Part shown: positions 9,068 to 11,742 of the stretch, piece after piece
How the letters are laid out: each line of letters begins with the position of its first letter
How positions within the stretch are numbered: position 1 is the stretch's first letter
Origin: Hasllibacter halocynthiae
GTDB lineage: Bacteria > Pseudomonadota > Alphaproteobacteria > Rhodobacterales > Rhodobacteraceae
Assembly (NCBI RefSeq): GCF_003003095.1
Contig: NZ_PVTT01000002.1
Location: 1,037,501-1,101,500, forward strand
Direction of reading: 5' to 3'
DNA length: 64,000 nt
Program-made: the position numbers and the translations under genes
The notes under the pieces: model-generated
Seen by the model: only the letters and a program-made list of their open reading frames with translations
What the model was told of the DNA's origin: nothing
The model's database searches: none

Positions 9068-9838
9068 TCAGCCCCCGCCCAGGACGTCCCGCGTCCGCCA
9101 TCCCAGATGCTGGCCGCCATCGACGCAGATCACCTGCCCCGTCACGGCCCGTGCGCCGAGGAGGTAGTCGAGCGCGTCCGCGATCCCCTCGGGGTCGCCG
9201 CCCCGTCCGAGGATCGTGGCGGCGCGCTGGGCGGCGAAATGCGCCTCGGACTGGCGGCTCGCGCGCAGGGTAGGGCCGGGGGCGATGGCGTTGACCCGGA
9301 TGGCGGGGGCCAGCGCTTGGGCGCCCGTCCGCGTCAGCCACCACAGCCCCGCCTTCGCGAGCGAGTATGTCGCGAACTCCGGCGTGGGCTTGAGGACGCG
9401 CTGGTCGACCATGTTGACGACGAGGCCGGAGGCGAGCGGCTCGCCGTCCCCCCCGGGCTCCAGCCCCTGCTCGGCCATGGCCTGCATCAGCCAGAACGGC
9501 GCCTCGAGGTTCGATCCCAGATGGCGGTCCCAGCCTTCGGGCGTCGCGGTGCGAATGTCGTCGCGCTCGAAGATCGAGGCGTTGTTCACGAGGACGGTGA
9601 CCGGCCCGCCGAGCGCCCCGGCCGCGCGCGGCAGAAGGGCGCGGGCCACGTCCCGGTCGAGGAGGTCGCCGCGTACCGTCTCGGCCACCGCGCCCTCGGC
9701 CTGGACCATGGCGGCCGTCTCCTCCGCGCCCGCGGCGCTCTCGTGGTAGTGGACCGCGACCGCATGACCCCTGCGTGCCAGCCGCACGGCCATCGCGCGC
9801 CCCAGCCGCCCGCCCGCCCCGGTGACCAGCGCCCTCAC
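9068..9838 (-). CDS. SDR family oxidoreductase, pteridine reductase (FolM)-like
   Basis: This 256-aa short-chain dehydrogenase has the NAD(P) motif TGAGGRLG near the N-terminus, NNAS at the end of strand beta-4, and the catalytic YSLAK. The sequence LVNNASIF and the late VDGGQHLG resemble the pteridine reductase / dihydromonapterin reductase (FolM) branch, so reduction of a pterin is the best guess; the substrate is not proven by sequence. The GTG at 9838 is preferred because it gives the standard SDR start (VRALVTGAGG) and overlaps the stop of the exchanger gene upstream by four bases (GTGA), implying coupled translation. Confidence 0.8.
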   Translation of the reverse strand: MRALVTGAGGRLGRAMAVRLARRGHAVAVHYHESAAGAEETAAMVQAEGAVAETVRGDLLDRDVARALLPRAAGALGGPVTVLVNNASIFERDDIRTATPEGWDRHLGSNLEAPFWLMQAMAEQGLEPGGDGEPLASGLVVNMVDQRVLKPTPEFATYSLAKAGLWWLTRTGAQALAPAIRVNAIAPGPTLRASRQSEAHFAAQRAATILGRGGDPEGIADALDYLLGARAVTGQVICVDGGQHLGWRTRDVLGGG

Positions 9839-10791
9839 GTCAGGACGAACGCGACGTAGAGGACGTAGAGCGCCGTCAGTATGCCCCCGGTGGCCCGCCC
9901 CATGTCCCGCCTGCCGAAGACGAAGGGCACCAGCACCAGGGACGCCCCCGCCATGACCCACAGATCCGAGCGTAGGACCTGCGGATCCACCGGGATCGGC
10001 CCGACCAGCGAGGCGACGCCGATGATCGCCAGGAGGTTGAACATGTTCGACCCGATGACGTTGCCCAGCGCCACGTCAACTTGTCTGCGATGTGCGGCGG
10101 AGATGGTGGTCGCCAATTCGGGCAGGGAGGTCCCGAGGGCCACCAGCGTGAGCCCGATCACCTCGTCGGAGAAGCCGAAGGAGCGCGCGATGCCCGAGGC
10201 GCCGTCCACGAGGAGGTTCGCGCCGATCGGCAGGGCGACGAGGCCGATCGCCAGCGCGCCGAGGATCTTCGGCCAGCCGAGCGAGGGGTCCGCGCCCTCG
10301 ACCTCCTCCTCGTGGTCCTCGGCCGCGCGGTGGGCGGCCGCCGCGGCGCGGTAGGCCCAGAGCAGCATCGCCGCCAGCCCGGCCAGGAGGATCAGCCCGT
10401 GCCACCAGGTGAACGGGCCGAAGAAGGCCAGCAGGATGAACAGCGCCGTCGCCGCCAGCATCTGCACGTAGGAGCGGCGGGTGTCGAACCCTGAGGTGGC
10501 GAGGCCCGTCATCAGCGCCGGCACCCCCAGGACCAGGAGGACGTTCGCCGTGTTCGAGCCGACGACGTTGCCGAGCGCCAGCCCGGCCACCCCGTCCAGG
10601 ATCGCCTGGATCGAGATCAGCAGCTCGGGCGCGGAGGTGCCGAAGGCCACGATCGTGAGCGACACGATCAGCGCCGGCACCCCGAGCCGCAGCGAGAGGT
10701 TCACCGCCCCCTTCACGAGAAAGTCGCCCCCCACCAGCAGAAGGGCGAGGCCGCCCCCGACCATGACCCAGTCGAGGATCACGCGCGGCAT
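9835..10791 (-). CDS. CaCA family calcium/sodium antiporter (YrbG-like)
   Basis: This 318-aa inner-membrane exchanger has ten predicted helices in two inverted halves. The two alpha repeats are clear: VAFGTSAPELLISIQA and VALGTSLPELATTISA. Each carries the ion-binding Pro-Glu, and each half has a GNVVGSN / GNVIGSN motif. An acidic cytosolic loop (EDHEEEVEGAD) separates the halves, as in YrbG and archaeal NCX. The start ATG at 10791 lies inside the end of the small zinc-finger gene (13-base overlap). The stop overlaps the SDR start. Calcium is the usual ion of this family; transport direction is unknown. Confidence 0.9.
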   Translation of the reverse strand: MPRVILDWVMVGGGLALLLVGGDFLVKGAVNLSLRLGVPALIVSLTIVAFGTSAPELLISIQAILDGVAGLALGNVVGSNTANVLLVLGVPALMTGLATSGFDTRRSYVQMLAATALFILLAFFGPFTWWHGLILLAGLAAMLLWAYRAAAAAHRAAEDHEEEVEGADPSLGWPKILGALAIGLVALPIGANLLVDGASGIARSFGFSDEVIGLTLVALGTSLPELATTISAAHRRQVDVALGNVIGSNMFNLLAIIGVASLVGPIPVDPQVLRSDLWVMAGASLVLVPFVFGRRDMGRATGGILTALYVLYVAFVLT

Positions 10792-10934
10792 CCGCAGCCG
10801 GCGTCGCCGATGCGCAAGCGCCCGCATCCGCGGCAGCGACCGACGCGCCTGACGCCGCGCCCCGGCACCCAGATCCGGCCCCACATCGCCATGAGCGCCA
10901 TGAACACCAGAAAGAGGGTGACGATCTTCAGCAC
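10779..10934 (-). CDS. 51-aa membrane-anchored CxxC/CxC zinc-finger-like protein
   Basis: This small gene lies between the S49 peptidase and the CaCA exchanger. It starts at GTG 10934, one base after the peptidase stop (TGA-C-GTG), and ends at TGA 10779-10781 inside the exchanger's first codons. The product has one N-terminal hydrophobic helix (about residues 1-18, rich in L, V, F and M). An Arg-rich linker follows, then CRGC and CGC near residues 34-37 and 47-49, a plausible zinc-binding knuckle. I recall similar tiny proteins (membrane helix plus CPxCG...GxGPC) next to S49 peptidases in other Rhodobacteraceae, so it is probably a real conserved gene. Its function is unknown. Confidence 0.75.
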   Translation of the reverse strand: MLKIVTLFLVFMALMAMWGRIWVPGRGVRRVGRCRGCGRLRIGDAGCGCRA

Positions 10935-10935
10935 G

Positions 10936-11742
10936 TCAGAGGCCGAACCGCGCGAGCATCGCGCGTTCCGCCAGCATCGCGTCGAGCCGGCCGGCCGCCC
11001 CGTCCGCGAGGCCCGCGCCGAAGCGCCGCAGGAAGGGCCGGCGCTGGCCGTAGCGGCGGAAGCGGATGTCCTTGCCGTAGAGCGCGCGCATCTTCGGCTC
11101 CAGATGGGCGACGCCGTCGGTCAGCCCGACCGCATGGGCGGTCTCGCCGACCCATATCTCGCCCGTGAAGAGGCGCGGATCGTCCGACAGGCGGGCGCCG
11201 CGGCGGGCCTTCACGTGCGCGATGAAGCTCTGGTGGATCTGCTCGAGAAGCTCGCGCAGGCGGGCGACGTCCTGGGGGTCCTCCGGCCGGAACGGGTCCA
11301 GCTTGGACTTCGACTCGCCGGCGGTGTGGACGCGCCGCTCGATGCCGTAGCGTCCGATCAGCCCCTCCAAGCCGAAACCCGCCGAGATCACCCCGATGGA
11401 CCCGGTGATGCTGCTGGCGTCGGTCCAGATGTCGTCCGCGGCGCAGGCCAGCCAGTAGCCGCCCGAGGCGGCGACGTCCTCGACGAAGGCATGGACGGGA
11501 ACGCCGTGCTTCTCCGAGAGGCGCCGGATGCGCGCGCCGATCAGCGACGACTGGACCGGGCTGCCCCCGGGCGAGTTGATCTGCAGCGCCACGGCCTTCG
11601 GTTTGCCCTTCGCGAACGCCCGCTCGAGCACCGGCCCGATCCCGGCGTCGTTCAGGGTGCCGCGCGTGCCCTGCGCGATGGCCCCCGAAAGGCGCACGAC
11701 CGCGACGATGGGCTTTGGGGCGGCGAACGGGTTCCAGCGCAT
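10936..11742 (-). CDS. S49 family serine peptidase (SppA/SohB-like)
   Basis: This 268-aa single-domain peptidase is related to signal peptide peptidase A. INSPGGSP (about residues 56-62) forms the oxyanion region. Ser93 in AASGGYW is the predicted nucleophile, and a lysine in ESKSKLD (145 or 147) is the predicted base, about 52-54 residues later as in Bacillus SppA. SITGSIGVI is also conserved. There is no N-terminal membrane anchor, unlike classical SppA, so it may act in the cytosol or be held at the membrane by a partner. The 51-aa membrane protein encoded one base downstream is an obvious candidate, though that is inference. Confidence 0.88.
   Translation of the reverse strand: MRWNPFAAPKPIVAVVRLSGAIAQGTRGTLNDAGIGPVLERAFAKGKPKAVALQINSPGGSPVQSSLIGARIRRLSEKHGVPVHAFVEDVAASGGYWLACAADDIWTDASSITGSIGVISAGFGLEGLIGRYGIERRVHTAGESKSKLDPFRPEDPQDVARLRELLEQIHQSFIAHVKARRGARLSDDPRLFTGEIWVGETAHAVGLTDGVAHLEPKMRALYGKDIRFRRYGQRRPFLRRFGAGLADGAAGRLDAMLAERAMLARFGL

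Follow-up and report, generated by a model that had tools for sequence, protein, structure and literature searches.

Does a 51-aa open reading frame (ORF) squeezed between a peptidase gene and an exchanger gene encode a genuine protein, and to which of the two neighbours is that protein tied? The question is raised by a locus of Hasllibacter halocynthiae (Rhodobacteraceae) within a window of 64,000 nucleotides, the whole stretch of DNA analysed here (contig NZ_PVTT01000002.1, positions 1,037,501 to 1,101,500; coordinates below are those of the window). An earlier note, made from the sequence alone, had proposed that the ORF encodes a membrane zinc-finger protein linking an S49 peptidase to a CaCA exchanger. 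On the minus strand, the genes are arranged in the order sppA (11742..10936), small ORF (10934..10779), CaCA exchanger gene (10791..9835) and SDR oxidoreductase gene (9838..9068). Our analysis reveals that the small ORF is a real, conserved gene located directly 3' of sppA. There is good support for the gene and for its association with SppA; the idea that its product acts as an adaptor is plausible, and the link to the exchanger is secondary. No paper on this small gene was found in the open-licence PubMed Central literature.

The small gene and its product

The small gene (10779..10934, minus strand) is defined by the ORF list, an alignment of relatives, a hidden Markov model (HMM) and its adjacency to sppA. 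The sppA stop codon occupies 10938–10936, base 10935 is the only spacer, and the small gene opens with GTG at 10934, one base after the peptidase stop as the earlier note had described. Since no obvious Shine–Dalgarno sequence can be read upstream of the GTG, the small gene is likely to be translationally coupled to sppA. Its own stop codon (10781–10779) lies inside the exchanger start, also as described, resulting in a 13-nt overlap (10779..10791, minus strand) if the exchanger begins at ATG 10791; this start was chosen from relatives, whereas the mechanical ORF opens earlier, at GTG 10884. The small gene is single-copy in the genome, the second-best match reaching only E 0.02.

The product (MLKIVTLFLVFMALMAMWGRIWVPGRGVRRVGRCRGCGRLRIGDAGCGCRA) consists of an N-terminal hydrophobic helix followed by a cysteine-containing part. 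AlphaFold2 confidently predicts a helix at residues 2–22 (10869..10931, minus strand; means of 94 and 88 in the blocks covering residues 1–20), which hydropathy predicts to be a membrane helix, with a best 17-aa value of 2.37 in the window protein and 2.18–3.19 across 27 aligned sequences (alignment A1). The cysteine part is loosely modelled, with mean pLDDT values of 73, 67 and 56 in the blocks from residue 31 on, and the model contains no metal. The residues F8, C34, C37, C47 and C49 are invariant in A1, and the four putative metal-ligand cysteines are conserved in 27/27 sequences of A1 and 14/14 of the mixed alignment A2; two further loci (L020 and L023) carry the gene with four cysteines and were left out of A1. 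These cysteines form a CxxC-x9-CxC probable zinc ribbon at codons 34–49 (10788..10835, minus strand), through which the protein probably binds zinc, judging from the conserved pattern. The membrane helix and CRGC...CGC motif of the earlier note are therefore correct, while its zinc finger is better described as probable. Net positive charge is found on the C-terminal side of the helix in 27/27 sequences, suggesting that the ribbon faces the cytoplasm.

Several observations support that the ORF is a real gene. For the ribbon form, dN/dS has a median of 0.37 (1264 pairs, 78 genes), and for a helix-only form described below one of 0.49 (29 genes); both values come from a simple Nei–Gojobori count in which the pairs are not independent. 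As a rough control, a similar cysteine pattern together with a hydrophobic stretch was found in 0 of 223 stop-to-stop frames of 45–75 codons in the window, a set that excludes the small gene itself, whose open frame is longer. Searches of the window protein against Pfam and NCBIfam returned nothing over the cut-offs, and A1 matched none of the solved structures significantly.

The HMM built from the 27 relatives matches 130 of 139 Rhodobacteraceae genomes at E<=1e-3 (one genome per genus, window genome included). In the other families of the class, it matches 0 of 140 genomes, so that the conservation in the family is more than chance. A second, overlapping draw from the order gave 141/149, with only truncated or weak matches in G214 and G256. 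SppA is present in all 139 genomes of the first set, and in 129 of the 130 matching genomes the small gene immediately follows the 3' end of sppA on the same strand; G092 is the exception, with its two matches on different contigs, each near a contig end. Among the nine HMM-negative genomes, six carry a divergent four-cysteine ORF directly behind sppA and one (G023) carries a helix-only ORF there. Of 80 named loci fetched via SppA, 70 pass the strict cysteine pattern, eight more show a ribbon by inspection (one of them, L276, is short), and the remaining two, both Paracoccus (L272 and L274), are helix-only. In genome G246, the ribbon encoded by the small gene (L161) is a variant whose second knuckle is longer (CPTCKRVNFSNQPTPCERPDCGNR), resembling forms found elsewhere in the class.

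SppA and its pairing with the small gene

The upstream gene (10936..11742, minus strand) encodes an S49 peptidase of 268 aa, which matches Pfam PF01343 (E 6e-29, 101.4 bits, over the cut-off of 24.9) and scores 120.3 bits against TIGR00706, under its cut-off of 155.45. Its closest solved structures are those of Bacillus subtilis and Escherichia coli SppA, and its predicted structure best matches the former. A Ser–Lys catalytic dyad is present, with both residues invariant in 28 aligned SppA sequences. Ser93 (11464..11466, minus strand), the probable nucleophile, aligns with the serine of the ASGGY motif found in SppA from both B. subtilis and E. coli. Lys145 (11308..11310, minus strand), the probable general base, is in our reading of the structural comparison the probable equivalent of K199, which is named for B. 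subtilis SppA (PMC7568657). The N-terminal anchor of B. subtilis SppA is absent from the window SppA, as indicated by a best N-terminal 19-aa hydropathy of 0.43 and by comparison with the SppA structures, so that the earlier note was right on this point. Only 2 of 144 SppA loci (duplicates included) reach the hydropathy threshold, and both represent the same gene with an uncertain start. At the other end, SppA is predicted with low confidence to finish in a helix followed by RFGL (10939..10950, minus strand), a tail conserved in the class sample. In genome G009 (L008 and L052), sppA is matched in two separate pieces meeting close to residue 95, as a frameshift or an error in the assembly would produce.

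Beyond what the earlier note had claimed, the sequence comparisons point to a distant relationship between the small protein and the PP0621 family, and they show that its pairing with SppA extends well past the Rhodobacteraceae. PP0621_fam (NF041023) is the first or only NCBIfam match for all eight divergent members searched (E 7.7e-08 to 0.074, 13.3–32.5 bits), each under the 45-bit cut-off; the window protein itself gives no match to PP0621_fam, and it has the PP0621-like layout of a helix followed by a cysteine ribbon. In the class, PP0621_fam at E<=0.01 matches 56 of 142 genomes, one of them over the cut-off, and a search with A2 matches 52 of 142, including two from the family of the window genome. 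Outside that family, 64 class genomes contain SppA at E<=1e-40, and 39 of these have the small gene behind sppA (37 by profile and two by eye); several of the matches are weak, and a match was counted only if it adjoined sppA, with up to 438 nt between match ends. The surroundings of the pair differ between the two groups. In the family, the SDR gene and usually the CaCA gene follow the small gene, and glyQ is found in 0 of 45 fetched flanks, as compared with 30 of the 39 loci outside the family; the identities of the glyQ and methyltransferase probes were checked separately. Thus, the sppA–small gene pair is kept in two different neighbourhoods, which supports the claim of a small conserved protein tied to an S49 gene. 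Among the 25 class genomes negative for an adjacent ribbon gene, eight (G294, G317, G332, G342, G348, G354, G357 and G366) are not clean absences because they have a PP0621 or A2 match elsewhere, in some cases weak.

The ribbon is not retained in all lineages. Within the family, three lineages have lost the cysteines and kept the helix: G231, G214 and one genus, which by the names of L272 and L274, two loci of the same form, is Paracoccus. SppA was found in 39 of 41 genomes of this genus, and all 30 loci fetched, L315 among them, are helix-only. In L289–L318, L272 and L274, the small protein is only 36–65 aa long, frequently with a GPGxRR motif, and drift is seen in the tail of SppA. Elsewhere in the class, 6 of the 25 genomes without the adjacent ribbon gene (L115, L119, L121, L145, L149 and L153) have behind sppA a short ORF with an N-terminal hydrophobic stretch and no ribbon. 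Such an ORF occurs at 22 of 500 same-strand control places, so that about one would be expected as compared with the six seen. Two of these ORFs (L115 and L121) look to us like the ribbon form with its cysteines replaced, and some other class genomes have probably also dropped the ribbon and kept the helix. In L115, L121, L145 and L153, the helix is kept behind sppA and the ribbon is gone, which looks like a secondary loss of the cysteines.

A proposed membrane partner of SppA and the alternatives

We propose that the small protein is a membrane partner of the anchorless SppA, a proposal that we regard as having an even chance of being correct. It would be a single-pass inner-membrane protein with its N terminus outside and its four-cysteine zinc ribbon on the cytoplasmic side, where the anchorless SppA would be. 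Translated directly after SppA, probably by termination–reinitiation, it may tether the SppA assembly to the inner membrane, keep SppA restrained, or do both. This proposal is based on the adjacency to sppA in 129 of 130 family genomes with an HMM match and, in divergent form, in six of the nine without one, the persistence of the pair in two neighbourhoods including 39 of 64 class genomes outside the family, the lack of an N-terminal anchor in SppA together with the charge C-terminal of the helix, and the survival of the helix in three family lineages devoid of the ribbon, in line with docking being the longer-lasting role. In addition, B. subtilis provides a precedent in its sppA–sppI operon, in which SppA and SppI (YteJ) are co-encoded and form a complex, and SppI inhibits SppA and keeps it from removing its C terminus by self-cleavage (PMC7568657). 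If correct, the proposal would account for the way in which an SppA without an anchor gets to the membrane and is held in check. The small gene occurs in almost every Rhodobacteraceae genus sampled and follows sppA in numerous other families of the class. The substrates and control of Gram-negative SppA are poorly understood, and the natural ribbon-less forms represent ready-made test variants. A bolder version, which we consider improbable, is that a separate miniature protein serves as both anchor and control of a cytoplasmic alphaproteobacterial SppA, the helix docking it at the inner membrane and the ribbon gating its tail, with several lineages having kept the anchor only and at least one of them showing decay of the SppA tail.

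A number of observations weigh against a membrane partner of SppA. The conserved Lys3/4 sits inside the hydrophobic stretch, and the topology call is for this reason not clean. Two family genomes (G082 and G113) keep SppA with no small gene seen, and two others (G214 and G256) retain the small gene with no SppA orthologue found. The sampled class SppA proteins are anchorless with or without an adjacent small gene; replacement of a lost SppA anchor by the small gene is therefore not supported, and the argument of the earlier note that SppA lacks an anchor and is thus recruited is weakened, although the missing anchor itself stands. The class search with PP0621_fam is loose, matching 2 of 14 control genomes, neither over the cut-off. 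In the phylum, where PP0621_fam matches 74 of 249 genomes, none of the 30 fetched PP0621 loci has a match to the window SppA within about 1.5 kb, a search made by tblastn with the window SppA only, by which distant S49 genes could be missed. Lastly, distance-matrix co-variation (mirrortree, 89 loci) does not separate the two neighbours, the partial r with the small gene being 0.30 for SppA and 0.30 for CaCA, as compared with 0.09 for SDR.

In an alternative explanation, the small protein is a membrane zinc-ribbon protein of the PP0621 type that has its own function, and it is placed behind sppA by an inherited class order (methyltransferase, sppA, PP0621-like gene, glyQ) that survived cluster rearrangement. 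We consider this explanation possible, with the balance tilting clearly against it. It draws on the PP0621_fam matches of the eight divergent members, all of them sub-cut-off, on class genomes lacking an SppA neighbour that can carry the gene beside glyQ (for example L055), on G214 and G256, and on the phylum loci, none of which adjoins SppA; one phylum gene (L179) lies beside a gene for a PilS-like sensor kinase (Pfam 6TM_PilS). Yet the family surroundings differ from those of the class and the sppA–small gene pair has stayed together, which weighs against inherited order. A narrower form of the membrane-partner proposal, with which its likelihood overlaps, holds that the small protein is an SppA inhibitor guarding the conserved C-terminal tail, as SppI does. 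The tail motif, defined as a basic or similar residue, an aromatic residue or Leu, Gly, and Leu or a similar residue, with at most one extra residue, occurs in 104 of 106 family SppA proteins with a ribbon partner as compared with 1 of 30 in the ribbon-less genus. In the class, the motif is found in 37 of 39 SppA proteins with the small gene and also in 22 of 25 without an adjacent ribbon gene, the six genomes with a helix-only ORF included, and G231 has lost the ribbon and kept the tail as RLGL. Strict joint loss of tail and ribbon is rejected on these grounds, and the tail loss in the ribbon-less genus may be a single event. We consider a tail-guarding inhibitor unlikely.

The least probable of the alternatives is that the small protein serves the exchanger, either as an accessory or as a translational leader for the overlapped CaCA gene. 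The exchanger gene (9835..10791, minus strand) encodes a calcium/sodium antiporter-like protein (TIGR00367, 231.1 bits, cut-off 179.65), and this idea is consistent with the 13-nt overlap in the window, the presence of CaCA in 75 of the 80 named loci, the retention of the small gene and CaCA in the absence of SppA in G256, and a co-variation as strong as that with SppA. However, CaCA is present in only 34 of 45 family loci examined (33 tallied plus L044), is absent from its place ahead of the SDR gene in L016, L021, L025 and L026, and was not seen in the 39 small-gene loci outside the family; moreover, a leader needs no cysteine conservation. We have therefore set back the small protein as an exchanger-specific partner. 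Accordingly, of the link between peptidase and exchanger claimed in the earlier note, the S49 part holds, while the CaCA part is weaker, with glyQ usually found as the neighbour outside the family. The SDR gene (9068..9838, minus strand; PF13561, E 8.2e-33; GTG 9838 start assumed) is next in the cluster, and its position is conserved in relatives.

Comparison with known systems

The cysteine part of the small protein shows weak profile similarity to the zinc ribbons of Nop10 and bL32, with a best E of 0.11, which is not significant. Nop10 and bL32 are not known to have a membrane helix; a further difference lies in the second knuckle, which reads CxC in most of the small proteins from the Rhodobacteraceae. 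The PP0621 family (NF041023) is closer in design, sharing an N-terminal hydrophobic helix followed by a CxxC-type ribbon, with a best E of 7.7e-08 among relatives of the small protein; it differs in that the 30 fetched phylum members do not lie beside SppA. In the literature passages found, PP0621 of Pseudomonas putida is listed as hypothetical, another mention of the name is a Legionella locus tag, and no function is described.

SppI of B. subtilis is likened to the small protein by description rather than by sequence. It has two or three predicted helices and a mass of about 19 kDa, and the passages available do not mention a zinc ribbon for it (PMC7568657). Its partner also differs, B. subtilis SppA having its own membrane anchor while the window SppA is anchorless. 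Despite these differences, both systems contain a gene for a membrane protein, predicted as such for the small protein, that stands together with sppA, and the small gene is conserved in this place; the likeness would be one of function and not of homology.
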